A DNA stretch of 36,533 nucleotides from Chloroflexota bacterium (lineage in GTDB: Bacteria > Chloroflexota > Dehalococcoidia > Dehalococcoidales > UBA2162): NCBI GenBank assembly GCA_016199495.1, contig JACQGQ010000067.1, positions 1-36,533 of the forward strand, in the 5' to 3' direction. The number at the start of each line of letters is the position of its first letter. The first letter of the stretch is position 1. The translations under genes were made by a program, and so were the position numbers. The notes below the pieces were generated by a model. The model did no database searches and was not told where the DNA came from. It saw only the letters and a list, made by a program, of their open reading frames with translations. Positions 18,324-31,352 of this stretch are shown one piece after another.

Positions 18324-19268
18324 ATGCAGAGATTGTTAAGTTTACTCGGATTTGTCGTGATGACACTGGCGCTACTGGTATCAGGCTGCACTGGTGGTGG
18401 TAGCCAGGGTGAGGTTACCAAGGGACCCATTACCATCGGCTCAAAGATTGATACCGAGGGGGCGTTATTATCACAAATGATTATCTTAATGCTCCGAGAT
18501 AACGGCTTTGAAGTAATCGATAAGTCGCAGTTCGGGCCCACTTCAATCGTGCGCAAAGCACTGGAAAGCGGTGAGCTTGACATCTACCCGGAGTACACGG
18601 GAAACGGCGCCTACTTTTTTGATGAGGCTGATTCAGATGTCTGGAAAGACGCCCGGAAGGGCTACGATAGAGTAAAGCAGCTTGATATGGAAACCTATAA
18701 CATCGTCTGGCTCAAGCCGGCGCCAGCTAACAACACCTGGGCAATAGCCATGCCCCGGGAGCTTGTCGAAGAGAAAAATTTACAGACCCTGGACGACTTC
18801 GCCGCTTATGTCAACGGGGGCGGTTACGTCAAACTAATCGGCTCCGAAGAATTCGTCAATAGCCCGGCCGCCCTGCCGGCATTCCAGGAGGCCTATGGCT
18901 TCACTCTGACTAAAGAGCAGTTGCTCACGGTATCCAGTGGTGATACGGCACAGACGGAGAAGGCGGCATCGGAAGGCACCGATGGAGTTAACGCCGCCAT
19001 GGCCTACGGCACCGACGGCTCACTCAGCGCCTTCGACCTGGTTGTCCTCGGTGACCCACGGGGTGTACAACCAGTTTATCAGCCGGCACCCAGGGTGCGC
19101 CGTGAAATAGCCGACAAATACCCTGAGATTGCCACCATTCTTGACCCGGTCTTCGCCTCCCTCGACCTGGAAACTCTGCAAACGCTCAATGCTAAGATTG
19201 CTGTTGCCGGCCAGAATGCGGCCGATGTCGCCAGGGAATACCTGACGACAAAGGGTTTCTTGCCGTAG
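18324..19268 (+). CDS. osmF: Osmoprotectant (glycine betaine/choline type) ABC transporter binding lipoprotein
   Basis: The substrate-binding part of a quaternary-amine ABC importer. The 314-residue protein has a lipoprotein signal ending in the lipobox LVSGC with C22 as the lipidated cysteine, so it is tethered outside the cytoplasmic membrane. The mature part begins with ITIGSKIDTEGALLSQMI and contains ALESGELDIYPEYTGNGAYF, the conserved core of the OpuAC/OsmF (YehZ) family. It continues to VNAAMAYGTDGSLSAFDLVVL. The closest design by context is E. coli YehZ, which leads the operon yehZYXW; the same order is seen here. Substrate within betaine, choline, carnitine or other compatible solutes cannot be read. 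The promoter and a strong ribosome site precede it. Confidence 0.88.
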   Translation: MQRLLSLLGFVVMTLALLVSGCTGGGSQGEVTKGPITIGSKIDTEGALLSQMIILMLRDNGFEVIDKSQFGPTSIVRKALESGELDIYPEYTGNGAYFFDEADSDVWKDARKGYDRVKQLDMETYNIVWLKPAPANNTWAIAMPRELVEEKNLQTLDDFAAYVNGGGYVKLIGSEEFVNSPAALPAFQEAYGFTLTKEQLLTVSSGDTAQTEKAASEGTDGVNAAMAYGTDGSLSAFDLVVLGDPRGVQPVYQPAPRVRREIADKYPEIATILDPVFASLDLETLQTLNAKIAVAGQNAADVAREYLTTKGFLP

Positions 19269-19292
19269 ATTTATTAGCGCCAAAGGGAAGAG

Positions 19293-20474
19293 ATGATTCG
19301 GCGATTTATCAGCCGTGACAGTGTTGCCCTGGTCGGCTCCATCATCGGTCTCTCCTCGGTGCTGCCTGGTTGGTTGACACTAAAGCCCAGTCGCATTGTT
19401 GCCGGGACGAGCCTGCGCCTGTGGCAGAGCAGCGACTGGGAAGGAAGCACCGTCATACTGGGACTATGGCTGCTTTGTTTTGTCCTTAGTTTACTGAGAG
19501 GGAGCAAGTTATCGGCGCTAATGCTGGGCACGGCCGCCAATCTTATCATCATCGTTACTTTCCTGCTCGCCGGGCTGGTTGCCAGTAATCTCCTCGAGGG
19601 CGCAGCCCCCTCCGCCCGCGTATCACTTGGTGCCGGCATCTGGATGACCCTGGGCGGCGCCTACGTGGTCATATTTGCCGCTCGTCAGAGACTGCCTGAT
19701 TCGCCCCTGTGGCGAAACCTGGTCTCATGGGCCGGGCTGGCAGCTCTCGGGGTTCTGCTGACTATCGGTTGGCTTGGCAACCTATCGATACTACAGGAGT
19801 TTAGCGGACGTGAAGAGCGTTTCGTGCAGGAGCTGCTGCAGCATCTTTTTCTCTTTGGCAGCAGTGTCGCCGCCGGCACCGTCCTCGGTATTCTGCTGGG
19901 TATCCGGGCAGCACGGAGTACTGGCGCCGCCGGGCCGATATTCTTCATTAGCAACATTACCCAGACGATACCCAGCCTGGCACTCTTTGGCTTGCTTATT
20001 GCCCCGCTTTCCGCATTGTCTTTCGCCTTCCCTGTCCTGCGTGAATTCGGTATCCGCGGCGTCGGTGTTGCCCCGGCCATCATGGCTCTAATCGTCTATT
20101 CGCTGCTGCCCGTCGTGCGCAATACCTATGTCGGCTTTCATCAATTAGACCCGGGCGTCATCGATGCCGGGCGGGGAATGGGGATGAGTCGCGGTAATAT
20201 CTTCCGCAAACTGGAGGTTCCTTTAGCAGCACCGCTTATCTTAGAAGGTGTGCGCACCGCCGCTGTGCAGTCGGTCGGTCTGACGGCGGTGACGGCACTT
20301 ATTGGTGCTGGCGGACTTGGCTGGTTTATCTTCCAGGGTCTGGGGCAAGCCGCCGCCGACCTTATTCTGCTTGGTGCCATTCCCATCATTGTCCTGGCTC
20401 TGCTGGTGGACGCCGTGATGCGGGCTATCATCACCTTAGCCACACCTAAGGGACTGGGGGTAGGCAAGCAATGA
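19293..20474 (+). CDS. yehY: Osmoprotectant ABC transporter permease, long YehY-like form
   Basis: A 393-residue permease. Residues about 175-393 form the standard BPD transport domain with the EAA loop VIDAGRGMGMSRGNIFRKLE (289-308), which contacts the ATPase. The N-terminal 170 residues add about four extra hydrophobic segments. This long form matches E. coli YehY (about 385 residues) and differs from OpuCB (about 215). It starts 24 bases after the binding-protein stop, with AAAGGGAAGAG as ribosome site, and overlaps the ATPase gene by 4 bases (ATGA). The function of the extra N-terminal part is not known to me. Together with the short permease it should form a heterodimeric channel. Confidence 0.87.
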   Translation: MIRRFISRDSVALVGSIIGLSSVLPGWLTLKPSRIVAGTSLRLWQSSDWEGSTVILGLWLLCFVLSLLRGSKLSALMLGTAANLIIIVTFLLAGLVASNLLEGAAPSARVSLGAGIWMTLGGAYVVIFAARQRLPDSPLWRNLVSWAGLAALGVLLTIGWLGNLSILQEFSGREERFVQELLQHLFLFGSSVAAGTVLGILLGIRAARSTGAAGPIFFISNITQTIPSLALFGLLIAPLSALSFAFPVLREFGIRGVGVAPAIMALIVYSLLPVVRNTYVGFHQLDPGVIDAGRGMGMSRGNIFRKLEVPLAAPLILEGVRTAAVQSVGLTAVTALIGAGGLGWFIFQGLGQAAADLILLGAIPIIVLALLVDAVMRAIITLATPKGLGVGKQ

Positions 20475-21577
20475 TACGTCTGGAGCAGGTAACCAGGTAT
20501 TATGGAAACACCATCGCCGTCAATGAACTTTCGCTTGAGGTCAGCCAGGGCGAAGTCTGTGTCCTTATCGGTCCCTCGGGCTGCGGCAAGACAACAACGC
20601 TACGGATGGTTAATCGCCTGATTGAGCCTACCGCCGGGCACATTTTCATTAACGGTCAGGACAACAGCCAAATCAAGCCGGAGCGGCTGCGCCAGTCAAT
20701 TGGCTATGCGATTCAAAGTGTTGGCCTTTTCCCTCACATGACGGTGGCCGCCAATATCGCGACCGTACCGGAGCTGCTACACTGGGAGAAAAGCCGCATT
20801 GCCAGTCGCATTGAGGAACTGCTGATACTGGTCGGGCTTAACCCGGCTGAGTATGCCCGAAAATACCCGAACCAGCTCTCCGGTGGGGAAGCCCAGCGTG
20901 TCGGGGTGGCGCGCGCCCTGGCGGCTGACCCGCCGATTCTACTCATGGACGAACCATTCGGGGCAGTCGACCCTCTCACCCGGGAGAGACTGCAGTCCCA
21001 ATTCGCCCGCATTCAGCAAAAACTGAAGAAAACCACTATCCTGGTGACCCACGACCTCGACGAGGCTATTCGGCTGGCTGACCGGATAGCCATAATGGCA
21101 TCAGGCAAACTGGTGCAATATGATACACCAGAGACAATCCTCTCCAGGCCGGCCAATAAATTTGTCCACGACTTCGTCGGCACGGACCGGGCACTGAAGC
21201 GCCTGTCTCGTATCTCCATCCAGAGCGTCATTAAGCCCTCTCCGGCTATCGTCATGGACGTCTCTATCGAAGAGGCAGTATCAGTCATCGGCAGCCGCCC
21301 CTCGGTCTGGGTCGTCGCTGATGATGGGCGCTTTATCGGTTGGGTTGACATGACGAGTCTATCAGCGGCCACTTCGGTCAGGGAGGCGATAGTCCCGGGA
21401 GACGTCGATGAAATCGCCATCACGGCTAGTGCCACCCTTCGGGAAGCTCTCTCACGAATGCTAGGGCAGGGATTGAGGAACATCCCGGTGGTTGATGAAA
21501 AGAAACACTTCATCGGTGAGGTGACACTGAGTGATGTCGAGGCGGTGACGGCTGAGACGGCTGAGACGGGAGCGTAG
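20471..21577 (+). CDS. opuCA: Osmoprotectant ABC transporter ATPase with tandem CBS domains
   Basis: The ATP-binding subunit, 368 residues. Walker A is GPSGCGKTT (34-42), the Q-loop lies in YAIQSVGLFPHM, the signature is LSGGEAQRVG (136-145) and Walker B ILLMDEPFGAVD (156-167). Residues about 245-362 hold two CBS repeats (IQSVIKPSPAIVMDVSIEEA and VDEIAITASATLREALSRML). In OpuCA/OpuA-type importers CBS domains sense ionic strength or c-di-AMP and gate transport. E. coli YehX lacks them, so this subunit is OpuCA-like in an otherwise Yeh-like operon. The start ATG overlaps the previous stop (ATGA). The C-terminal codons contain a 9-base tandem repeat giving TAETAETGA. Confidence 0.92.
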   Translation: MIRLEQVTRYYGNTIAVNELSLEVSQGEVCVLIGPSGCGKTTTLRMVNRLIEPTAGHIFINGQDNSQIKPERLRQSIGYAIQSVGLFPHMTVAANIATVPELLHWEKSRIASRIEELLILVGLNPAEYARKYPNQLSGGEAQRVGVARALAADPPILLMDEPFGAVDPLTRERLQSQFARIQQKLKKTTILVTHDLDEAIRLADRIAIMASGKLVQYDTPETILSRPANKFVHDFVGTDRALKRLSRISIQSVIKPSPAIVMDVSIEEAVSVIGSRPSVWVVADDGRFIGWVDMTSLSAATSVREAIVPGDVDEIAITASATLREALSRMLGQGLRNIPVVDEKKHFIGEVTLSDVEAVTAETAETGA

Positions 21578-21579
21578 CT

Positions 21580-22332
21580 ATGCCTAAAGCGCAAATGAGA
21601 CGTTGGCTCCTTTTGGCGATACTGGTTGTGGCTTTTACTGTCCTCATTAGCCGCATGGAATTGTGGGAGGCAACGCTCCGCTTTCTCTTCCCCCAGGAGA
21701 GCCGGGTACTGCACCCCCGCGCCAGCCTGCTCGTCCTCGTCGGGGAGCATATTCGGCTGGTCGCTATCTCCAGTGGTCTCAGCATCCTCTGCGGCATACC
21801 GCTTGGAATATGGGTAACCCGTCCCGGTGGCCGTAACTTCTTGCCCATAGTTACCGACCTTACTTCATTTGGCCAGACATTTCCCCCGGTGGCTGTTCTT
21901 GCCCTAGCGGTGCCTATGCTCGGCTTTGGACTACTACCGACAGTATTTGCCCTCTTCCTTTACGGGCTGTTGCCTATCGTGCGCAATACTATTGCCGGGC
22001 TGAGCGCCGTGCCAGCGGATGTCCTGGAGGCGGCGGCTGGTATGGGCATGGGCCGAGCGCGGCGCCTGCTTCGAGTAGAAATTCCCCTGGCAGCAACGGT
22101 CATTCTGGCGGGTGTGCGGATATCGGTCATCATTAACATCGGGACCGCGATGATAGGTGCCGTTATTGGTGCTGGCGGACTCGGTTCGCCAATTATCGCC
22201 GGCCTGGTACAGGATAACCTTGCCTATATCATTGAAGGGGCACTGCCAGCGGCGCTGCTGGCTGTTTTAGCCGACCAATTATTAGCCAATATCGAGAGGG
22301 TCTTCGCCTACTCAGCCGAAACGCTAACTTAA
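21580..22332 (+). CDS. yehW: Osmoprotectant ABC transporter permease, short YehW-like form
   Basis: A 250-residue inner-membrane permease with about six hydrophobic segments. The BPD transport EAA loop is VLEAAAGMGMGRARRLLRVE (148-167), very similar to that in the long permease of the same operon. The conserved LPIVRNTIAGL precedes it, and GAVIGAGGLGSPIIAGLVQDN follows. It starts 2 bases after the ATPase stop, so translation is coupled. It is the last gene of the four-gene operon, 67 bases before fur, which has its own promoter. No clear terminator hairpin lies between them. Confidence 0.88.
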   Translation: MPKAQMRRWLLLAILVVAFTVLISRMELWEATLRFLFPQESRVLHPRASLLVLVGEHIRLVAISSGLSILCGIPLGIWVTRPGGRNFLPIVTDLTSFGQTFPPVAVLALAVPMLGFGLLPTVFALFLYGLLPIVRNTIAGLSAVPADVLEAAAGMGMGRARRLLRVEIPLAATVILAGVRISVIINIGTAMIGAVIGAGGLGSPIIAGLVQDNLAYIIEGALPAALLAVLADQLLANIERVFAYSAETLT

Positions 22333-22399: not shown

Positions 22400-22873
22400 T
22401 TGCGAATGGAAAGCATTAGCGATAATGAAATGGGCACTGAAACTAAAACAACGGATAAAAATCGTCGGATATTAAATGTCCCCGGACTGAGGATTACCCA
22501 TCAGCGAGCTTCAATTCTGGAAATCATTCGCCAGGGGAAGGGACACCTGGACGCTGATGAGGTCTATCGTCGCGCCCGAGAGAGACAGCCCCGCCTCAGC
22601 CTGTCCACTGTTTATCGAACCATGCAGACGCTCAAGAAACTAGGTCTAATCGAGGAAGTTCATTTTGACGAGGAACACCACCACTATGAGATGAAACCCT
22701 CGACGGAGCATCACCACCTGGTTTGTCTCGGCTGCGGTCGGGTGGTTGAATTTAATTACCCGTTAGCTCGCCTGATAAAGAGACACGTTACTGAAGCCAA
22801 GGGTTTTGAGATTACCGGTAGTGAAGTCCGCATGACCGGCTATTGCCCCACCTGCCGCCAGGAAAGGAAATAA
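22400..22873 (+). CDS. fur: Fur-family metal-dependent repressor
   Basis: A Fur/Zur/PerR-family repressor. The longest frame has 157 residues from TTG at 22400; the ATG at 22406 (155 residues) fits a leaderless start. An N-terminal winged helix holds TVYRTMQTLKKLGLIEEVHF (70-89), with LSLSTVYRT as recognition helix. The dimerisation domain carries HHHYEM (93-98) and EHHHLVCLGCG. Two CXXC pairs, C109/C112 and C149/C152, form the structural zinc site. Regulatory-metal ligands among H93-H95 and H104-H106 are present, but sequence alone does not separate iron, zinc and peroxide sensors. Its position directly in front of fbpABC and FTR1 argues for iron. The unusually long N-terminal extension (about 25 residues, rich in E, T and K) may not be fully translated. 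Confidence 0.92.
   Translation: MRMESISDNEMGTETKTTDKNRRILNVPGLRITHQRASILEIIRQGKGHLDADEVYRRARERQPRLSLSTVYRTMQTLKKLGLIEEVHFDEEHHHYEMKPSTEHHHLVCLGCGRVVEFNYPLARLIKRHVTEAKGFEITGSEVRMTGYCPTCRQERK
22402..22420 (+). promoter_or_regulatory. Candidate Fur-family operator at the fur start
   Basis: GCGAATGGA-A-AGCATTAGC has the 9-1-9 geometry of a 19-base Fur box, with 6 of 9 positions symmetric. It matches the site at 22892-22910 at 13 of 19 positions (15 of 20 over 22400-22419). It overlaps the predicted transcription start, so binding would repress fur itself. It does not match the E. coli Fur consensus closely. Confidence 0.45.
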
Positions 22874-23041: not shown

Positions 23042-24067
23042 ATGTATAAGCGAAAATGGGTTTTTGGTTTGGCCAGTTTGATACTGGCAGCCACATTAGT
23101 ACTCGGTGCCTGTACACCAGCGGCTGAGACTACCCCAAAGGAGCAGACGCTTACCGTATACTCGGGGCGTAGTGAAGCTCTGGTGGCACCGATAATTGAC
23201 CAGTTCAGCAAGTCCACAGGGGTCAAGGTTCAGGTGCGCTATGGTAGCACCTCGGAAATGGCCGCCACCATCTTAGAAGAGGGCAAGAATAGCCCGGCGG
23301 ATGTCTTCTACGCTCAGGACCCAGGTGGACTTGGTGCGGTGGAGCATCTTTTTACGCGGATTCCAGATAGTATCGTGAGCCAGGTTGAGCCGCGCTTCCG
23401 CTCGCCGGAGGGTAAGTGGGTCGGCATCTCCGGACGGGCTCGGGTAGTCGTCTACAACACGCAGAAGCTGAAGGAGGCTGATTTGCCCGATGACATCTGG
23501 GACTTTACCGACCCGAAGTGGACTGGACGGATTGGCTGGGCGCCAACTAATGCTTCTTTCCAGGCAATGGTTACCGCCATGCGAGTGCTCTGGGGTGAAG
23601 ATAAGACCAGACAATGGCTGAAGGGCATCCAATCCAATAATCCGAAAGTCTACCCTGGTAATACTCAGATTGTCGCTGCCGTCGGGGCTGGGGAAGTTGA
23701 GGTCGGTTTCCCCAATCACTATTACCTGTACACCTTCCTTCGGGATAAGGGGGAATCCTTCCCGGTCCGGAACTATTATGTGAGGGCAGGTGGGCCAGGA
23801 GCAGTCATTCTGGTTGCCGGTGCCGGAATTCTCCAAACTTCAAAGAATAAAGATGCCGCCCAAAGCTTCTTGGGCTTTCTACTTTCACCGGCTGGTCAGC
23901 AGTACTTTGCCTCACAAACTTTTGAGTACCCGGTGATTGAAGGGATTATAACCCACCGTTTGCTGAAACCTCTTTCAGAAATCAAGAGCCCAGATATTGA
24001 GATGGCAGCGATGGCTGACCTGAAAGGTACGCTCAATCTTTTGCGGGAGATAGGGATAGTACCGTAA
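23042..24067 (+). CDS. fbpA: Ferric iron ABC transporter binding lipoprotein (FbpA-like)
   Basis: A 341-residue extracytoplasmic iron-binding protein. The signal peptide ends in lipobox LVLGAC with C24, so it is membrane-tethered, as expected for a cell without a conventional periplasm. The mature part begins with LTVYSGRSEALVAPIIDQF, the FbpA/FutA/AfuA opening. VGFPNHYYLYTFL contains the tyrosine pair Y227-Y228, the ferric-iron ligands of this family. SPADVFYAQDPGGLGAVE and GRARVVVYNT are further family blocks. A strong ribosome site (AGAAAGGAGAAAAACAA) precedes the ATG. It leads fbpA-fbpB-fbpC and has its own Fur-type operator candidate upstream. Binding of another metal or of a polyamine-like ligand is less likely given the tyrosine pair. 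Confidence 0.92.
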   Translation: MYKRKWVFGLASLILAATLVLGACTPAAETTPKEQTLTVYSGRSEALVAPIIDQFSKSTGVKVQVRYGSTSEMAATILEEGKNSPADVFYAQDPGGLGAVEHLFTRIPDSIVSQVEPRFRSPEGKWVGISGRARVVVYNTQKLKEADLPDDIWDFTDPKWTGRIGWAPTNASFQAMVTAMRVLWGEDKTRQWLKGIQSNNPKVYPGNTQIVAAVGAGEVEVGFPNHYYLYTFLRDKGESFPVRNYYVRAGGPGAVILVAGAGILQTSKNKDAAQSFLGFLLSPAGQQYFASQTFEYPVIEGIITHRLLKPLSEIKSPDIEMAAMADLKGTLNLLREIGIVP

Positions 24068-24072
24068 CCAGA

Positions 24073-25716
24073 ATGGCAGTAATAACAGGTAGAACTTCAA
24101 ACCTAATAGCCAGACTAGGTCGGGCTGGCCGGGGGGCGCATGTCTCCCGGCCGCCTGCTATTATCTGGCTACCGGCCACCTTGGTAGCGGTTGCCGTGCT
24201 CCTCCCTCTGGTCTACCTGGTGCTACGAACCCTGGGGGTCGGAGGAGAGATATGGGAGTTGCTGTTCCGGGCACGAACCTTCGCTATTTTGGGGCGCACA
24301 GTGGGCTTGGTCATCGCCGTAACCGGGATTTCGATAGCTATCTCGTTACCGCTGGCATGGCTTACGGCCCGCACCGACCTTCCACTACAGCGAATGTGGT
24401 CAGTGCTGACTGTCCTTCCCCTGGTTATCCCCAGTTACGTAGCCGGTTTTATTGTCGTAGCCGCGCTGGGACCCCGAGGAATGCTGCAGCAATTACTGGC
24501 CGTACCCTTCGGGCTGGAGCGCTTGCCCGAGATTTATGGCTTCCCCGGAGCAACGCTCACGATAACCATGGTTACTTTCCCCTATGTGCTGATTACCCTT
24601 CAAGCCGCCATACGGGGGCTGGACCCTTGCCTGGAAGAAGCCTCCCGTAGCCTGGGGCATGGTCCCTGGGACACCTTTCGCCGCGTAACACTACCGCAAC
24701 TGCGCCCGGCTATCGCCGCCGGTGCCTTGCTGGTGTCCCTTTATACCCTGCACGATTTCGGGGCAGTATCGCTGCTACGCTACGAGACCTTTACCTGGGC
24801 TATTTATCTCCAGTACCAGACGTCTTTCGATAGGACGGCGGCCGCCGCCCTATCGCTAATCCTGGTAGTTATCGCGGTGGTTATCCTCTTTACTGAAGTT
24901 CGCACCCGGGGTAGAGCCCAGTACCACCGCAGCAGCGTCGGGGGAGCTCGTCCACCAGCTTGTGCTCAGCTAGGGCGATGGCGCTGGCCGGCTTTTGGCT
25001 TTTGCTCCCTGGTTGTTCTGCTGTCACTCGTTATGCCGATGTCGATACTGGGCTACTGGTTGGGGCGCGGCGTTGCCGCCGGAGAGCCGTTCCAGGTGGT
25101 CTGGAGTTCGGCTTTGAACTCAGGGTACGTCGCCGCACTAGCGGCCTTAGCCATAGTAGTCGCCGCCCTGCCGGTGGCAATTCTGGCGGTACGTTATGCT
25201 AGCCGTATCAGCAGCCTGCTGGAGCGGGCTACTTATATCGGCTTTGCTCTGCCCGGCATCGTCATCGCACTGGCCCTGGTTTTCTTCGGGGCAAACTACG
25301 CTACCCCTATCTACCAGACTTTAGGGCTTTTAATCTTCGCCTACGTTATCCTCTTTCTGCCCCAGGCAATCGGGGCGGTCAGGTCATCGTTACTGCAAGT
25401 TAGCCCCCGGGTGGAAGAAGCCGCCCGTAGCTTAGGCAGCACATCGTGGCAAGTGCTGGGTAGGGTCACTCTCCCGATGATACACCGCGGAATTTTAGCG
25501 GGAGCGGCCCTGGTCTTTCTGACGACGCTGAAGGAGCTACCAGCGACACTAATCCTGAGTCCTATCGGCTTTAAGACGCTGGCCACTTCAATTTGGTCAG
25601 CGACCTCGGAGGCATTCTTCGCCCGGGCGGCCGTGCCGGCCCTGCTCCTGATACTAATAGCATCGGTGCCAATGGCAATCATCGTTACTCGAGAGCGGAG
25701 AGAACAGCATGACTAA
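24073..25716 (+). CDS. fbpB: Ferric iron ABC transporter permease, fused double-domain form (FbpB-like)
   Basis: A 547-residue permease made of two BPD domains in one chain, typical of FbpB/AfuB. About twelve hydrophobic segments are visible. Each half has an EAA loop for ATPase contact: CLEEASRSLGHGPWDTFRRV (186-205) and RVEEAARSLGSTSWQVLGRV (446-465). A charged linker of about 30 residues (277-305) joins the halves. It begins 5 bases after the fbpA stop and overlaps fbpC by 8 bases, which indicates tight coupling. The N-terminal 25 residues are basic and not membrane-spanning, so the exact start is a little uncertain. Confidence 0.92.
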   Translation: MAVITGRTSNLIARLGRAGRGAHVSRPPAIIWLPATLVAVAVLLPLVYLVLRTLGVGGEIWELLFRARTFAILGRTVGLVIAVTGISIAISLPLAWLTARTDLPLQRMWSVLTVLPLVIPSYVAGFIVVAALGPRGMLQQLLAVPFGLERLPEIYGFPGATLTITMVTFPYVLITLQAAIRGLDPCLEEASRSLGHGPWDTFRRVTLPQLRPAIAAGALLVSLYTLHDFGAVSLLRYETFTWAIYLQYQTSFDRTAAAALSLILVVIAVVILFTEVRTRGRAQYHRSSVGGARPPACAQLGRWRWPAFGFCSLVVLLSLVMPMSILGYWLGRGVAAGEPFQVVWSSALNSGYVAALAALAIVVAALPVAILAVRYASRISSLLERATYIGFALPGIVIALALVFFGANYATPIYQTLGLLIFAYVILFLPQAIGAVRSSLLQVSPRVEEAARSLGSTSWQVLGRVTLPMIHRGILAGAALVFLTTLKELPATLILSPIGFKTLATSIWSATSEAFFARAAVPALLLILIASVPMAIIVTRERREQHD

Positions 25717-26767
25717 GATAGCAGTGCGTTGTACTGACCTGACCAAAAACTTCGGACGGACCCCGGCGGTCCAAGGGGTTAACCTGGAGGTAGAGGAGGG
25801 GAGCTTCCTGGCTCTACTTGGTCCCAGCGGTTGTGGTAAGACGACATTGCTGCGGCTTATCGCCGGTTTTGAGATGCCTGACCGGGGAACTGTCGCCGTG
25901 GGCGAGAGAATAGTCACCGGCCATAGAGTATTTGTGCCACCGGAGAAGCGCCGGGTAGGTATCGTCTTCCAGGACTACGCCCTGTTTACCCACCTGGATG
26001 TGGCTGCCAATATCGGCTACGGTTTACCTAAGGGTACTAACCGCCAGGAGCGGGTTCAGGAAATGCTTTCCCTGGTGGGGCTGAAGGGGCTTGAGCTCCG
26101 AATGCCCCATGAACTCTCGGGAGGGGAGCAGCAGCGGGTAGCCCTGGCACGTGCCCTCGCCCCCGGGCCAGAGGTGCTCTTGCTGGATGAGCCTTTCTCC
26201 AATCTGGATGCCGATTTACGAGCTCGGATACGAACTGAGGTCAAGGGCATACTCGCCTACGCCGGGGCTACCGTCATCTTCGTCACTCATGACCAGGAGG
26301 AGGCCTTCTTTATCGGTGACCGTGTTGGGGTAATGAATGCCGGGCGGCTGGAACAAATCGACCTGCCCGAAGCCATCTTCCACCGGCCGGCGACACCATT
26401 TGTCGCCCAGTTTGTCGGCACGGCCGATTTCCTCGCCGGCGAGGTTCAGGATAAGGCGATTGCTACCGAACTCGGCCGCTTGTCTCTTACCCAGGAGCTA
26501 CCTAACGGGACAAAAATCAAAGTAATGGTGCGCCCCGACTTCATAGATATACGACCAAAGGCAGACGGAGCCGGGATTATCGTGGAGCGGGTATTCCAGG
26601 GTATTAATTACCTGTACCGGGTACAATTACCCTCTGGAGCCACTATCCAGTGTCAACAACATCACAACCGGTCTTACTCTGTAGATACACGGGTGGGCAT
26701 CAAGATAAACCCTGGTCATAATCCAGTCTATTTTATAGACCGAGTAGAAAACCATGAATGGAGATAA
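25709..26767 (+). CDS. fbpC: Ferric iron ABC transporter ATPase (FbpC-like)
   Basis: A 352-residue ATPase that powers ferric import. Walker A is GPSGCGKTT (38-46), the Q-loop is in VFQDYALFTH, the signature [15 protein letters not shown] (136-150) and Walker B VLLLDEPFSNLD (156-167). A C-terminal TOBE-like domain begins at about 235 (FVGTADFLAGEV) and runs to the end. It overlaps fbpB by 8 bases. The length and TOBE tail match FbpC/PotA-type subunits. A gap of 119 bases separates it from the FTR1 gene; that gap has no clear terminator, so read-through into the second iron system is possible. Confidence 0.92.
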   Translation: MTKIAVRCTDLTKNFGRTPAVQGVNLEVEEGSFLALLGPSGCGKTTLLRLIAGFEMPDRGTVAVGERIVTGHRVFVPPEKRRVGIVFQDYALFTHLDVAANIGYGLPKGTNRQERVQEMLSLVGLKGLELRMPHELSGGEQQRVALARALAPGPEVLLLDEPFSNLDADLRARIRTEVKGILAYAGATVIFVTHDQEEAFFIGDRVGVMNAGRLEQIDLPEAIFHRPATPFVAQFVGTADFLAGEVQDKAIATELGRLSLTQELPNGTKIKVMVRPDFIDIRPKADGAGIIVERVFQGINYLYRVQLPSGATIQCQQHHNRSYSVDTRVGIKINPGHNPVYFIDRVENHEWR

Positions 26768-26886: not shown

Positions 26887-28182
26887 ATGATAACAGCTTT
26901 AGTAATTACCCTGCGCGAAGGTATGGAAATCGCTCTGGTATTGGGGATTATCCTGACCTATTTGCGGCGCACTGGTCGCGCTTCTCTTAACCATTATGTT
27001 TACCGGGGGCTAGGTCTGGCTCTTTTGCTGAGTCTAATCGGCGGTGTTGTGCTGCAAATTATTGGCTTGGACCCGGAGAATGAGTATCTGGAAGGCACCC
27101 TGATGGCTATTGGCGCTGTCTTTGTCGCCAGTATGGTGCTGTGGATGTGGCGCAGCGCCAAGAATATCCGCCACCAAATGGAAGCCAGGATGGCAAAGAT
27201 GATGACTGATGACCGCCGTTCCCGGAAGGCCGCGGTTGGCCTCTTGGTCTTCACCTTTTTTATGGTAGTCCGGGAGGGAGTGGAGATGGTAGTCTTTTTG
27301 GCCGCGGCAACACTGGGCCAGAGCGGTATCCTGACGGTCATCGGTGGTGTTTTTGGAGTTGGACTGGCCACCCTCTTTGCCATCCTGTTTATCCGGGGCA
27401 GCCTGAAAATTAACCTGGGCCGCTTTTTCACCGTGACAACTATCATCCTCCTCATTCTAGCCGTCCGCCTCTTGGTAGGCAGCGTTCATGAGTTTGCCGA
27501 GGTGGGGGCTATTCCCATGTCAGCCGGCATCATGAAAGTCCTGGGCTATTTACTGCGAGATAAAGCCTCCGCTCTTCTTCTTACCGGGCTAATACTGGTA
27601 CCAATTCTACTTCTCATCTGGGATTTCCGGCGGTCGGAAGCCAGTCTGCCTCCGGCGGAGGGGACTGACGCCCAGCGGCGGAAATGGCGCGCCGCCCGCC
27701 GCTGGGAGCAAATCTGGCAATCGAGTCTGATTGGCACGACTGCAGTCGTTGTCTTGGCAATGGGTTCTCAGGTCCTGGCGTCCAGCCCCTTCCTTGACCC
27801 AATCCCTCAGCCGGTCACGGTGACTCTGGATAATGACATAAGCCTATCAACAGAGGCATGGCCACCTGGCGAACTACAAAAATTCACCTATGTGGCTGGC
27901 GGAGATGAAGTCCGCTTTCTGGCGGTGAAATTAGTCGATGGTAGTATGGCTACCGCCCTGGATGCCTGCCAGATTTGCGGCATCACGGGCTATATGCAGG
28001 ATAGGAACGAGCCAATTGCCATCTGCAAAAACTGTAATGCCCCCATCCCGATAAATACCCTCGGCCGGGGTGGGGGCTGTAATCCCCTACCCCTCTCCTC
28101 CCGGATGGAGGGCACGACTCTAGTCATCCCCACGGAGGGGCTGGAAAGTCAGGCTCATCTCTTTACCAAGGAGACCAAGTGA
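26887..28182 (+). CDS. FTR1-family iron permease with C-terminal DUF2318-like cysteine domain
   Basis: A 431-residue membrane protein. The first 250 residues form the FTR1 high-affinity iron permease fold with about seven hydrophobic segments and the two REGxE motifs, REGME (10-14) and REGVE (129-133), whose acidic residues carry iron in yeast Ftr1p and bacterial EfeU. After a basic loop and another membrane segment (281-299) an external domain follows, with DACQICGITGYMQ (C361, C364), ICKNC (C380, C383) and C398. This looks like DUF2318, a predicted metal- or cluster-binding domain found beside FTR1 in P19-type iron loci. The ATG at 26887 has only a weak ribosome site. The next gene overlaps by 4 bases, so a four-gene unit is likely. 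Confidence 0.88.
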   Translation: MITALVITLREGMEIALVLGIILTYLRRTGRASLNHYVYRGLGLALLLSLIGGVVLQIIGLDPENEYLEGTLMAIGAVFVASMVLWMWRSAKNIRHQMEARMAKMMTDDRRSRKAAVGLLVFTFFMVVREGVEMVVFLAAATLGQSGILTVIGGVFGVGLATLFAILFIRGSLKINLGRFFTVTTIILLILAVRLLVGSVHEFAEVGAIPMSAGIMKVLGYLLRDKASALLLTGLILVPILLLIWDFRRSEASLPPAEGTDAQRRKWRAARRWEQIWQSSLIGTTAVVVLAMGSQVLASSPFLDPIPQPVTVTLDNDISLSTEAWPPGELQKFTYVAGGDEVRFLAVKLVDGSMATALDACQICGITGYMQDRNEPIAICKNCNAPIPINTLGRGGGCNPLPLSSRMEGTTLVIPTEGLESQAHLFTKETK

Positions 28183-29513
28183 CCTGGCGCTTGCTTCGGG
28201 AGACGCTATGGCACCGTAAGGCGCCGGTGGGACTAGCCCTACTAGCCATTGTGGTCGGCACCTCGCTGGCGATGGCTTTACTCAGTGTCTCGGCCAATAT
28301 CCTGGGGAAGATGAGTCAGGAACTTCGTTCTTATGGGGCTAATATCGTGGTTACGCCACGCTCAGAGCGGGTGGAGATAGATATTAGCGGAGTGACCTAC
28401 TCGCCACCGGGGGCTGCCAGCTATATTGATGAAGGCGAACTGGTTAAGCTCAAAACCATCTTCTGGGCGAATAACATCCTGGGGTTTGCCCCCTTTCTCA
28501 GTATTCCGGTTCAGGTCGGGGAAAGCCGTCAACCAGTGGCTCTCACCGGTACCTGGTTTGATAAAGAGGTCACTTTGGCGAAAGGCACCGTTATTCGCAC
28601 CGGTTTTACCGAGGAAAGCACCATCCGCGAAGGAATCTCCTTTAGCACCGGGGTGAAGACGATATCTTCATGGTGGCAGGTCACCGGAGCCTGGCCCGAG
28701 GAGGCTAACAGGGAAACCGTGCTGGTGGGGATTTCCCTGGCCCAGCGGCTGGGGATTCGTGTTGGCGATACTCTGCCGCTAGAGTATGATGGGCGGCTTC
28801 ACCATTTTACAGTGGTCGGGCTGGTCAGCACTGGTGGCTTTGAGGAGGACCAGATTATCGCTAGCCTACCTCTGGTGCAGGGGTTGCTGGGTCTGCCCTA
28901 TGGTGCCAGCCGGATTATGGTTAGTGCTATGGTTCTGCCCAAAGAAAAACTGATACCGGAGTTGAAGGACAAGAAGCCAGAGGAGATGACGCCTCGGGAA
29001 TACGAGCTCTGGTATTGCAGCCCGATTAGTGAGGCGGTGGTCAAACAAATAGAAGAGGTTCTTCCCGGGAGCCAGGCCGGCGTCATCCGCCAGATTGCTG
29101 AAGCCGAAGGCGCTTTTCTAATGAAGATGGAAGGATTAATAATATTGATTACCCTGATTGCCTTAATCGTCTCTATTGCCGGCGTTATGGCCACTCTCCA
29201 CACGACTATTCTGGAACGTCGGGGAGAGATTGGTTTAATGAAGGCGCTCGGTGCCCAAAATACACAGATAACCGCTCTTTTCCTCTCGGAGGCCGGTGTC
29301 CTGGGGATAATTGGCGGTTTCCTGGGATATTTGTCCGGCAGTATTTTAGCCTGGTTCATCGGAGAGAGGGTATTTAGCTCGGTGATTCCCCCCGACTCCA
29401 CCCTCTTACCCCTGGCTCTTTTCCTGGCTTTAGCCATTTCACTTCTGGGGAGTGGCCTTCCGCTATGGCAAGCCGTAAAAATAGAACCAATCAGACTGAT
29501 TAGAGGTGGTTAA
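28179..29513 (+). CDS. FtsX/MacB-like ABC permease, first of a pair in the FTR1 cluster
   Basis: A 444-residue permease with the MacB layout: one membrane segment near the N-terminus (about 17-37), a large external domain (about 40-315), then three segments in the FtsX domain (about 318-342, 368-396, 410-432). The external domain carries SSWWQVTGAWPEE (163-175), a motif repeated in the partner permease. The cytoplasmic loop has RRGEIGLMKALGA, typical for FtsX-type ABC permeases. The start is GTG at 28179 within GTGA, overlapping the FTR1 stop, with AAGGAG 5 bases ahead. MacB-type systems do mechanical work or export rather than classical import, so its job in iron uptake is not obvious. In Campylobacter similar permeases sit in the P19/FTR1 locus. 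Confidence 0.88.
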   Translation: MTWRLLRETLWHRKAPVGLALLAIVVGTSLAMALLSVSANILGKMSQELRSYGANIVVTPRSERVEIDISGVTYSPPGAASYIDEGELVKLKTIFWANNILGFAPFLSIPVQVGESRQPVALTGTWFDKEVTLAKGTVIRTGFTEESTIREGISFSTGVKTISSWWQVTGAWPEEANRETVLVGISLAQRLGIRVGDTLPLEYDGRLHHFTVVGLVSTGGFEEDQIIASLPLVQGLLGLPYGASRIMVSAMVLPKEKLIPELKDKKPEEMTPREYELWYCSPISEAVVKQIEEVLPGSQAGVIRQIAEAEGAFLMKMEGLIILITLIALIVSIAGVMATLHTTILERRGEIGLMKALGAQNTQITALFLSEAGVLGIIGGFLGYLSGSILAWFIGERVFSSVIPPDSTLLPLALFLALAISLLGSGLPLWQAVKIEPIRLIRGG

Positions 29514-29516
29514 GTT

Positions 29517-30644
29517 ATGTGGTGGCGAATTATTAGTCGCTCCTTCCGAAATCGTAAGGCTCGCCTGGCGCTAAGTATCTTATCGGTAGTGCTCGGCGCC
29601 AGCTTGGTCGCTGCCCTGAGCAACCTCTCACTGGAGATACCAGCGAAGGCTGGCTCTCAACTGCGCGCTTACGGAGCAAATCTTCTCATATTGCCTCAGG
29701 TTCCTCCTGGAACCAACGAAGCTTACATCTCAGAAAACGACCTTTCCTTCTTAGAGCGAGGAGAGGTAGCCCAGGCCGTGACCAGCTATGCCCCTTCTCT
29801 CTACAGCCTGGTCGAAATAGCCGGGCAACCGATAGTCATGGTAGGTACCTGGCTGGACGTAATGCCACAGATTAGCCCTTGGTGGCAGATTACCGGATAT
29901 TGGCCAGAAGGTCGGGAGAATATGGCCGAGGCGCTGGTGGGCACTCAGGTGAGTGAAAAACTCGGGCTGGGGTTAGGCAAAGAATTTACCGTTAGCTCCG
30001 GGGATAATACCCGGCGCTTTAAGGTAGCCGGTGTGGTCACGACGGGGGCGGCCGAAGACAAGCAAGTTCTCGTCAGCCTGAAGGCTGTCCAGGAGCTAAC
30101 CGTATTGCCGGGCAAGGTGGGGCTGGTCCAGGTGAGTGCCCTGACCCAATCTCATCCCCTGGCTCATCTGGCTAAACTTATCGAAGAGGGTATCCCGGGT
30201 AGCGAAGGGCGCGTCTTGGGGCAAATCGCCAAAGCCGAAAGCCGGATATTGAGCAAGGTACAACTTTTGCTGGCGCTGGTCGCCGGTTTAATCTTGACTG
30301 CTTCCGGGCTGGTTATTTTGAGCACGATGACCACAACCCTGCTGGAAAGGACAGCCGAGATTGGTTTGATGAAGGCGCTGGGGGCTTCTAGCCAGCGTAT
30401 CGCCGGGCTATTTAGCGCCGAAATCGGTATTATTACTTTGGGTGGGGGCATTTTGGGTTATCTACTAGGCTATATCCTGGCTCAATTTATTGGTTACCGG
30501 GTGTTTGCTTCAGCTATTTCCCCTCATCCCCTGGCTTTTCTGGTTACGATTACCATAGCCGCTATGGTCACCTGGTTTAGTAGTATCCTGCCATTACGTC
30601 GGGCAACACAGATTGACCCGGCAATAACATTAAGGGGAGATTAA
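29517..30644 (+). CDS. FtsX/MacB-like ABC permease, second of a pair in the FTR1 cluster
   Basis: A 375-residue paralogue of the preceding permease. It has the same order: an N-terminal membrane segment (17-36), an external domain with SPWWQITGYWPEG (120-132), then an FtsX domain with ERTAEIGLMKALGA and three membrane segments. The shared WWQ-TG-WPE motif and LRAYGANLLILP (49-60; LRSYGANIVVTP in the first) show the pair arose by duplication. The external domain is about 70 residues shorter than in the first, so a heterodimer with unequal outer parts is likely. It starts 3 bases after the previous stop and ends 3 bases before the ATPase, so the three genes form one translational unit. Confidence 0.88.
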   Translation: MWWRIISRSFRNRKARLALSILSVVLGASLVAALSNLSLEIPAKAGSQLRAYGANLLILPQVPPGTNEAYISENDLSFLERGEVAQAVTSYAPSLYSLVEIAGQPIVMVGTWLDVMPQISPWWQITGYWPEGRENMAEALVGTQVSEKLGLGLGKEFTVSSGDNTRRFKVAGVVTTGAAEDKQVLVSLKAVQELTVLPGKVGLVQVSALTQSHPLAHLAKLIEEGIPGSEGRVLGQIAKAESRILSKVQLLLALVAGLILTASGLVILSTMTTTLLERTAEIGLMKALGASSQRIAGLFSAEIGIITLGGGILGYLLGYILAQFIGYRVFASAISPHPLAFLVTITIAAMVTWFSSILPLRRATQIDPAITLRGD

Positions 30645-30647
30645 ATA

Positions 30648-31352
30648 ATGATAAACTCAGAACTTAGCTTAGCGGTCGAGGAACTAACCAAATATTATGC
30701 GGCACGGGTACTTGCCCTGGACAATGTTTCCTTATCGGTAGGCCATGGGGAACGGGTAGCTATTATGGGACCATCAGGCTCGGGCAAGACGACCTTGATG
30801 AACATCATTAGTGGCCTGGACCGGCCCAGCCAGGGGCAGGTTTGGGTAAACGGGCAGGATATTACCGGGTTAACCGGGGCGGAACTCACCCGCTTCCGAC
30901 GAGAGACAATAGGGCTGGTCTTTCAGCAATTCTACCTTATCCCGTACCTAAATGCGCTGGAGAATGTAATGCTGGCTCAGTATTTCCATAGCCTGGCTGA
31001 CGAAGAAGAAGCCCGCCAGGCGCTGGTGAGAGTGGGACTGAACGACCGTCTGTATCATTTACCCTCCCAGCTCTCCGGTGGGGAACAGCAGCGGGTTTGC
31101 CTCGCCCGAGCGCTAATCAATAGTCCACAGATTCTCCTGGCCGACGAGCCTACCGGAAATCTGGATAAAGCTAATGAAGAAATGGTGATGAAGCTCTTCC
31201 ACGAACGACACCAGGAAGGTTATACCCTTATCATGGTCACTCACGACCCGGATATTGCCCGGATGGCCGACCGCATTATCCGCTTTGACCACGGACGGGT
31301 GGTACCAGAGGATGTGGTGGGAAATAGCTCTCTGGCTAAGCCTCTCTTATGA
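30648..31352 (+). CDS. LolD/MacB-like ABC ATPase of the FTR1 cluster
   Basis: A 234-residue stand-alone ATPase for the two FtsX-like permeases. Walker A is GPSGSGKTT (41-49), the Q-loop [17 protein letters not shown], the signature [15 protein letters not shown] (142-156) and Walker [13 protein letters not shown] (162-173). [10 protein letters not shown] is the hallmark of the LolD/MacB/FtsE class, which pairs with FtsX-like permeases rather than BPD importers. The gene begins 3 bases after the second permease and is the last of the iron block. Because the cell probably lacks a classical outer membrane, a Lol role is unlikely, and the context points to support of FTR1-dependent iron uptake. 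Confidence 0.9.

Follow-up and report, generated by a model that had tools for sequence, protein, structure and literature searches.

A Chloroflexota gene joining a motif-intact FTR1 permease to a FetA-type cysteine domain in a putative reduced Fet operon

The window analysed here is the whole of a 36,533 nucleotide stretch of DNA from a Chloroflexota bacterium of the order Dehalococcoidales (contig JACQGQ010000067.1, assembly GCA_016199495.1). It contains a gene for a 431 amino acid (aa) protein in which an FTR1-type permease is joined to a cysteine-rich FtrD-like domain, formerly named DUF2318. Three genes for an ATP-binding cassette (ABC) transporter follow. Structure models were made with AlphaFold2 (AF2) and compared with VIA-align. 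The features of the chain and of the genes after it are:

26887-28182, forward strand: FTR1-FtrD protein, 431 aa, in the FetA position (open reading frame; Pfam FTR1 and FtrD-like)
26890-27507, forward strand: FTR1 permease domain, residues 2-207 (PF03239; the genome-wide search matches the same place)
26914-26928, forward strand: first REGxE motif, REGME, residues 10-14 (invariant in the nine-sequence alignment A1)
27271-27285, forward strand: second REGxE motif, REGVE, residues 129-133 (invariant in the nine-sequence alignment A1)
27622-27780, forward strand: charged linker (8 K+R, 5 D+E) and last membrane helix, residues 246-298 (hydropathy, charge)
27868-28164, forward strand: FtrD-like/DUF2318 domain, residues 328-426, predicted Rieske-like fold (PF10080, AF2, VIA-align)
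27967-27978, forward strand: CxxC motif 1, C361 and C364 (invariant in A1)
28024-28035, forward strand: CxxC motif 2, C380 and C383 (invariant in A1)
28078-28080, forward strand: fifth conserved cysteine, C398, in GGGCNP (invariant in A1)
28179-29513, forward strand: FtsX/MacB-type ABC permease, FetB-like (PF02687, PF12704; FetB tree)
29517-30644, forward strand: FtsX/MacB-type ABC permease, FetC-like (PF02687, PF12704; phmmer against E. coli FetC, 1e-50)
30648-31352, forward strand: LolD/FtsE-type ABC ATPase, FetD-like (PF00005; best NCBIfam matches of FtsE/MacB/LolD kinds, below their cut-offs)

Pfam places FTR1 at residues 2-207 (E 3.3e-39, 135.3 bits against a cut-off of 25.3) and the FtrD-like domain at residues 328-426 (E 7.8e-24, 84.2 bits against 26.3). 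The fusion proposed in the initial annotation is thus confirmed, as are both REGxE motifs (residues 10 and 129) and the cysteines C361, C364, C380, C383 and C398. These five are the sole cysteines of the 431-aa chain, with the spacing CxxC-x15-CxxC-x14-C. Alignment A1 comprises the window chain and eight related chains (L002-L009); both REGxE motifs, an HEFAE motif and the five cysteines are kept in all nine sequences. The NCBIfam models TIGR00145 (147 of 303.8 bits) and EfeU NF041756 (145.9 of 255 bits) stay below cut-off, and no solved structure is related to the whole chain by sequence at E<=0.01. Hydropathy gives nine peaks for membrane helices, some of them overlapping; the AF2 helices are of low confidence, including helix 261-297 of the whole-chain model. 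Charged residues number 8 K+R and 5 D+E in the loop that precedes the last helix, against 9 K+R and 15 D+E in the acidic C-terminal part. The charged linker and the acidic C-terminal part would thus, by the positive-inside rule, put the cysteine domain on the outside.

The start of the FetB-like gene overlaps the stop of the FTR1-FtrD gene by 4 bases, and gaps of 3 bases precede the FetC-like permease and the FetD-like ATPase. The order chain-FtsX-FtsX-ATPase is that of fetA-fetB-fetC-fetD; this FetBCD-like transporter, which is kept at the locus, had no place in the account given by the initial annotation. Past the ATPase, the next long open reading frame lies on the opposite strand. No thioredoxin or FMN-binding gene stands right after the ATPase; thioredoxins elsewhere in the genome were not searched for.

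In Campylobacter jejuni, the fetMP-fetABCDEF genes encode FetM (an FTR1 protein), P19, FetA, the permeases FetB and FetC, the ATPase FetD and two thioredoxins (excerpts of PMC10783030 and PMC6083913). According to the same excerpts, FetA has eight transmembrane (TM) helices, a DUF2318 domain and a YHS domain, and the cysteine pattern of its DUF2318 domain is CxxC-x13-CxxC-x14,15-C. Deletion of fetA, fetB, fetC or fetD, each alone, impairs growth at low iron, and the biochemical function of FetA is called unknown by its authors (PMC10783030, in the excerpted text). The cysteine domain had been taken for a separate protein in P19 loci. This is incorrect; it is the C-terminal domain of the eight-TM FetA (PMC10783030, same excerpt). 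P19 clusters with an FMN-binding gene number 260, mostly in Gram-positive bacteria (PMC8238504, in excerpt).

The window thus shares with the Fet systems of C. jejuni and uropathogenic E. coli a multi-TM protein with a C-terminal DUF2318 domain, after which come two FtsX-type permeases and an ATPase, and the proteins are related. The Fet systems differ in having a separate FetM, a P19 and a thioredoxin or FMN protein after the ATPase, none of which is matched here. FetA of E. coli, of Fusobacterium and of two Chloroflexota lacks REGxE, whereas the window chain keeps both motifs; E. coli FetA has a YHS domain and the window chain does not. The FTR1/EfeU permeases resemble the chain in matching PF03239 far above cut-off and in having both REGxE motifs, but the chain carries an additional linker, helix and FtrD domain. 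EfeUOB also differs from the case here, as the genome has no M75/EfeO match and the EfeU NF041756 score is below cut-off. FtrABCD of Bordetella and Brucella combines an FTR1-type permease, FtrC, with accessory proteins (PMC11966278, in excerpt). It consists of four separate proteins, including the cupredoxin FtrB, and the cysteine domain is tied to it by the Pfam name 'FtrD-like' alone. FtrA of this system is of the P19 type.

A search for related loci returned 11. Eight (L002-L009) encode the two-part chain, with 48-63% identity in the best segment; the other three match the FTR1 part only. PF10080 is matched at E<=0.001 in 31 of 245 genomes of the class, and the chains in these genomes were sorted by open reading frame length, blastp and FTR1 match. 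Ten class genomes have the FTR1-FtrD chain (G000, G018, G021, G024, G027, G038, G041, G045, G047 and G059), G007 alone has a FetA-type chain, and the other 20 have shorter or weaker forms only. Three of the ten (G021, G027, G045) carry a short PF10080 form besides the FTR1-FtrD chain. Among 350 genomes of the phylum, a set which overlaps the class set, PF10080 is found in 18; these add one intact chain (G359) and one FetA-type chain (G352).

With the same contigs counted once (L002 = G059, L004 = G038, L007 = G021, L009 = G024), there are 15 distinct intact chains: the window, L002-L009, G018, G027, G041, G045, G047 and G359. One of the 15 loci is recorded as Actinomycetota and the remainder as Chloroflexota. 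The five cysteines are present in every chain. Both REGxE motifs are seen in 14; the G041 chain, which starts at a contig end, shows the second motif. FtsX, FtsX and LolD genes lie directly downstream in 13 of the 15 loci, and the G045 contig stops after the first permease. Since the architecture is common to 15 distinct loci, chance is excluded. FTR1 is found in 55 of the 245 class genomes and the FTR1-FtrD chain in 10 of those 55; the joined form is therefore a minority among FTR1 carriers. Fusion is thus conserved within the chain's own family of 15 loci but is not the norm among the FTR1-bearing genomes of the class, a point on which the initial annotation had made its reading depend. In viral contigs, 19 stretches fit a FetA pattern and none is a relative; in the phage collection, five records give partial FTR1 matches only.

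Kinship with FetA is supported by comparison. Locus L065 (genome G352, same phylum) is a P19 locus encoding FetM (421 aa), FetP (209 aa), FetA (422 aa), FetB, FetC and FetD. The FTR1 domain of the window matches this FetA by phmmer (E 3e-6), and Pfam FTR1 reaches E 2.4e-5 and 24.2 bits on it, just below the cut-off of 25.3. At the position of the first REGxE, the two Chloroflexota FetA proteins read KNALE and KGGLE; nothing REGxE-like occurs within the first 200 residues of E. coli or Fusobacterium FetA. Profiles were compared with hhalign, using shallow alignments throughout, and the E-values are those of single comparisons. Four FetA membrane parts match 13 intact-chain FTR1 domains (97.4%, E 1.1e-11, 222 columns) and nine separate FTR1 proteins (96.8%, E 2.1e-10); all five FetA together give 95.1% and 96.3% against the FTR1 profiles. 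In the controls, FtsX and ABC-permease profiles reach <=0.2% against FetA, reversed profiles <=0.5% and 60 block-shuffled profiles <=4.4%. Taken singly against the intact-chain profile, FetA of G352 gives 96.4%, of G007 95.5%, of Fusobacterium 6.6% and of E. coli 0.3%; the membrane part of Pasteurella FetA gives 0.3% against FTR1. Full-length FetA aligns with the FTR1-FtrD family profile over 409 columns (E 1e-45), driven mainly by the cysteine domain.

FetB-type genes of intact-chain loci (13) form one clade (support 99/97) and those of FetA-type loci (4) another (100/99); the two are joined at 98/98 as sister clades, apart from FetC and from the FtsX permeases found at short-FtrD loci. In the membrane-domain tree, a branch with 99/99 support splits intact chains and FetA from standalone FTR1. 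The FetA branch is very long, and the tree leaves one origin versus two undecided. The FtrD domain itself gives a poorly resolved tree, from which two short proteins are absent, as they do not match the cysteine pattern by which the domain was cut. By these comparisons, kinship with FTR1 is well supported for Chloroflexota FetA and would extend to other FetA. In P19 loci, FetA is probably an FTR1 whose motifs have degenerated, joined to the same C-terminal domain. DUF2318 is the C-terminus of FetA, and the Chloroflexota FetA membrane part is FTR1-like without REGxE; the cysteine domain of the window chain therefore corresponds to that of FetA, not to P19. The idea that the fused domain replaces a separate iron-handling or redox protein stands in so far as the domain is plausibly redox-active; as the counterpart of the FetA domain, it need not be a substitute for P19.

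The Rieske-like fold of the cysteine domain is likewise supported by comparison. AF2 models the domain alone with a predicted local distance difference test score (pLDDT) of 93.9 and a predicted template modelling score (pTM) of 0.87; in the whole-chain model, the C-terminal blocks spanning residues 301-420 score 81-92. All 50 VIA-align rows listed for the domain model are, as read here, of Rieske kinds, with Z 9.0-6.6; 22 of 1000 chains have Z >=8. The best is 3gce (Z 9.0, root-mean-square deviation 3.3, 95 residues aligned), and 3gce, 1vm9 and 1fqt have Z 9.0, 8.8 and 8.3 over 95-98 residues. Twelve of the 50 rows are ferredoxins of a single enzyme system, carbazole dioxygenase, so that the rows do not count as independent. 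Nine rows titled only as bc1 complex or supercomplex are taken here to be Rieske subunit chains; the arsenite oxidase rows (5) and nitrite reductase small-subunit rows (3) are presumably Rieske folds also. With the whole chain as query, VIA-align also lists several unrelated helical proteins outside the C-terminal part; these fall on the unreliable membrane part and carry no weight.

The two CxxC motifs of the model fall between strands 4-5 and 6-7. In Rieske proteins, the loops at these positions hold the cluster ligands. A short alignment, from a comparison with a Rieske profile that is not significant, places C361 at the first Rieske cysteine and C380 at the second. The domain resembles Rieske-type ferredoxins and domains in its predicted fold and in the positions of CxxC in the model. 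It differs in that Rieske ligands are CxH/CxxH, whereas here there are CxxC/CxxC and a fifth cysteine, with no significant sequence match. A search for solved relatives of the domain by sequence gave nothing credible at E<=10. As modelled, the cysteine domain is probably Rieske-like, with cysteines replacing histidines.

The assembly of the window organism is 1.38 Mb in 91 contigs and is 80.84% complete. It has one FTR1 match at E<=0.001; beyond that match, no separate FetM permease gene is found in this incomplete assembly. Neither P19 (PF10634) nor M75/EfeO (PF09375) is matched in it at E<=1, and FeoB_C and FMN_bind are not matched at E<=0.001. There is also no P19 gene beside the chain. The initial observation that no P19-like gene is adjacent thus holds for the assembly as a whole, and a genome-wide check for EfeO gives the same answer. 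As the assembly is incomplete, genomes of relatives were searched as well. The survey covered 18 genomes with PF10080, the window's own included: 11 with the intact chain, two of the FetA type and five with short FtrD. P19 is present in both FetA-type genomes, in 0 of the 11 with the intact chain and in 0 of the five with short FtrD; M75 is found in none of the 18 (intact chain 0 of 11). The 11 intact-chain genomes are 64-96% complete, five of them 93-96%. The joined protein is the sole FTR1 match in eight of these 11 assemblies, with one extra match in G018, one in G047 and two in G038. P19 occurs in two of the 245 class genomes: G007, and G089 with a weak match and no PF10080 match. In G007 (contamination 9%), P19 and FetM lie on a different contig from FetA. 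No P19 hidden elsewhere was found in the 11 genomes with the intact chain.

Upstream of the chain, the window contains a regulator gene and the three genes of an ABC importer:

22400-22873, forward strand: Fur/PerR-family regulator (PF01475, E 9.2e-35)
23042-24067, forward strand: solute-binding protein of an ABC importer (PF13416/PF01547/PF13343; best NCBIfam matches of 2-aminoethylphosphonate types, far below cut-off)
24073-25716, forward strand: two-segment permease of the importer (PF00528, in two stretches)
25709-26767, forward strand: ATPase of the importer (PF00005 and PF08402; NCBIfam matches including a ferric type, all below cut-off)

The best NCBIfam matches of the importer are of 2-aminoethylphosphonate, molybdate, polyamine and ferric types; because every one falls short of its cut-off, the importer is given no substrate. 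A search of the window with the consensus of the Fur box gives 0 matches, even when 3 mismatches are tolerated. The Fur-family gene is preceded by a promoter-like site (11 of 12 positions), which carries no weight, because 8 such sites are found where 5.8 are expected. Directly ahead of the Fur-family gene, at 18324-22332, are an OpuAC glycine-betaine-type binding gene, an ABC ATPase and a permease-like open reading frame.

Several other arrangements were seen in related loci. A third PF10080 arrangement occurs in the Chloroflexota loci L054, L056, L062, L064, L066 and L067, as a short protein of 191-256 aa. The short FtrD proteins inspected have one apparent membrane helix ahead of the FtrD domain; their gene lies beside genes for a LolD-type ATPase and an FtsX permease, the latter doubled in L054, with no P19 and no FTR1 in the chain. 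In L062 (9321-11783), genes for FTR1, a lipoprotein-like protein, short FtrD, FtsX and LolD lie in this order on one strand; the lipoprotein-like protein may be rhodanese-like. A separate FTR1 gene stands just upstream of the FTR1-FtrD gene, without P19, in L006 (7123-9272) and L058 (4504-7216), with a Fur-family gene between the two in L058. This placement recalls that of FetM ahead of FetA. The second FtsX permease of L003 (3013-4143) is split into two open reading frames, by a true disruption or an assembly error. A single open frame of 1010 aa in G037 (C37, 6230-7879) has two FTR1 matches and is a possible tandem FTR1. The Fusobacterium locus (L037, 5026-10149) has fetABCD and a small FMN-binding-like protein; the 5 kb ahead of it contain neither FetM nor P19.

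The FTR1-FtrD chain fairly probably takes the place of FetA in a reduced Fet-type operon for iron uptake, its membrane domain having remained a motif-intact FTR1 permease; it would be a redox-coupled importer in one chain. It can be seen as a permease with its own redox partner because REGxE is intact, the assembly has no other FTR1 match and P19 is lacking. Relative to the Fet system, the FetBCD-like unit is kept, while P19, a separate FetM and the protein of thioredoxin or FMN type appear to be lost. Iron transport, the cofactor, electron exchange and the role of the ABC unit are inferred, as follows. Iron would arrive at the outer face and cross the FTR1 domain through both REGxE motifs. 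The extra helix would return the C-terminal domain to the outside, where the Rieske-like domain, with its CxxC/CxxC/C pattern, may hold a redox-active iron-sulfur or iron centre. This centre would trade electrons with iron at the mouth of the permease, and the FetB/FetC/FetD-like ABC unit may energise or supply the redox step. A single chain would thus cover the work done elsewhere by FetM and FetA, without P19.

The cysteine domain could accept electrons from Fe(II) or could reduce Fe(III). Fe(II) oxidation with the domain as acceptor is slightly favoured, since the excerpts of PMC10783030 and PMC11966278 call FTR1 homologues oxidase-dependent; in the latter, FtrC is predicted to draw on the energy of Fe(II) oxidation, the copper protein FtrB being the likely oxidase. 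A wider proposal is offered tentatively. FtrD/DUF2318 may be an all-cysteine domain of the Rieske type that serves electron transfer, and the family of FetA, this chain included, may consist of FTR1 permeases bearing it. Permease and redox domain would here work in one chain without P19 or a copper protein; the FetA of pathogen P19 systems would be a degenerate, non-transporting sister which keeps the redox domain and is probably paired with FetM.

A number of points weigh against these proposals. The membrane part of the whole-chain model is of low confidence. Neither G007 FetA nor E. coli FetA has a Pfam FTR1 match at E<=10. The set of E. coli, Pasteurella and Fusobacterium FetA is not significant against FTR1 (0.9% and 1.4%), and reaches it only via Chloroflexota FetA (72.6%, E 3.2e-5, 229 columns). 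In Fusobacterium, whose FetA is motif-degenerate, neither FetM nor P19 lies within the 5 kb upstream, so a degenerate motif and an adjacent P19 are not always paired. It is also conceivable that the likeness to FetA was assembled later and not inherited: an ordinary FTR1, EfeU- or FetM-like, may have replaced the membrane part of FetA, or joined the FetA cysteine domain upon loss of P19. Consistent with such a secondary fusion, the FTR1 domain resembles standalone FTR1 far more strongly (hhalign E 2.8e-45) than it does the FetA membrane part (E 1.1e-11), the comparison of linkers only is weak and not significant (8.6%), and the test of the membrane-domain tree does not reject a grouping of FetA and standalone FTR1 (p-AU 0.41). 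However, the membrane parts of Chloroflexota FetA are themselves FTR1-like, so that both types have the same two-part architecture; whole chains are collinear over the 409 columns, their FetB permeases are sister clades, and intact chains and FetA fall on one side of the 99/99 branch. Secondary fusion is thus considered rather unlikely.

The case for electron transfer also has its weak points. Many of the 50 VIA-align rows are near-copies of a few proteins, and Z <8 may reflect merely a common arrangement. Foldseek lists mostly Rieske proteins but at E 0.03 and weaker; against three E. coli Rieske domains, the sequence profile reaches no significance (4.5%; NirD alone 0.1%), and no Rieske Pfam model matches the chain at E<=10. 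The FtrD domain might instead be a metal relay, through zinc binding, thiol/disulfide exchange only or service as an iron chaperone. The two CxxC knuckles do resemble those of zinc ribbons and rubredoxin, and there are weak, sub-threshold Pfam matches of that kind; but the predicted fold matches Rieske kinds and not zinc ribbons in the 50 rows listed, and the fifth cysteine is invariant. A relay is considered unlikely. Other explanations concern the partner. The genome is only 80.84% complete, in 91 contigs, so a P19 or other periplasmic iron-binding protein could lie in the missing fifth or be too divergent for the P19 model, leaving an ordinary Fet system with scattered genes such as those of G007. 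This is very improbable, given that P19 is not found in any of the 11 intact-chain genomes, the five most complete included, while the same search finds it in both FetA-type genomes. The solute-binding protein of the neighbouring importer might feed FTR1 in place of P19. The importer set is directly upstream in the window, L005 and L006; in G041 a solute-binding gene, and not FtsX genes, lies downstream, where the first two genes of the set are found (4 of 15 loci in all). No such set is seen in the other 11 loci, several of which are short stretches, and the importer has its own permease and ATPase and thus no need of FTR1; a feeding role is accordingly judged improbable.

No report was found of FTR1 and DUF2318 in one chain, of FetA as an FTR1 relative or of a Rieske-like DUF2318, in a literature search without most subscription journals and without any bioRxiv preprints; as evidence of absence, this is weak. 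A motif-intact relative with the FetA architecture suggests an ancestry for FetA, and a Rieske-like DUF2318 suggests its role. The locus also suggests FTR1-type uptake without P19 or EfeO. Dehalococcoidales are anaerobes. Such uptake would suit a lineage with Dehalococcoidales relatives. If true, the all-cysteine Rieske reading gives FetA a testable function; the ancestry of FetA and the role of DUF2318 can both be tested, the latter on a soluble domain of 130 residues.

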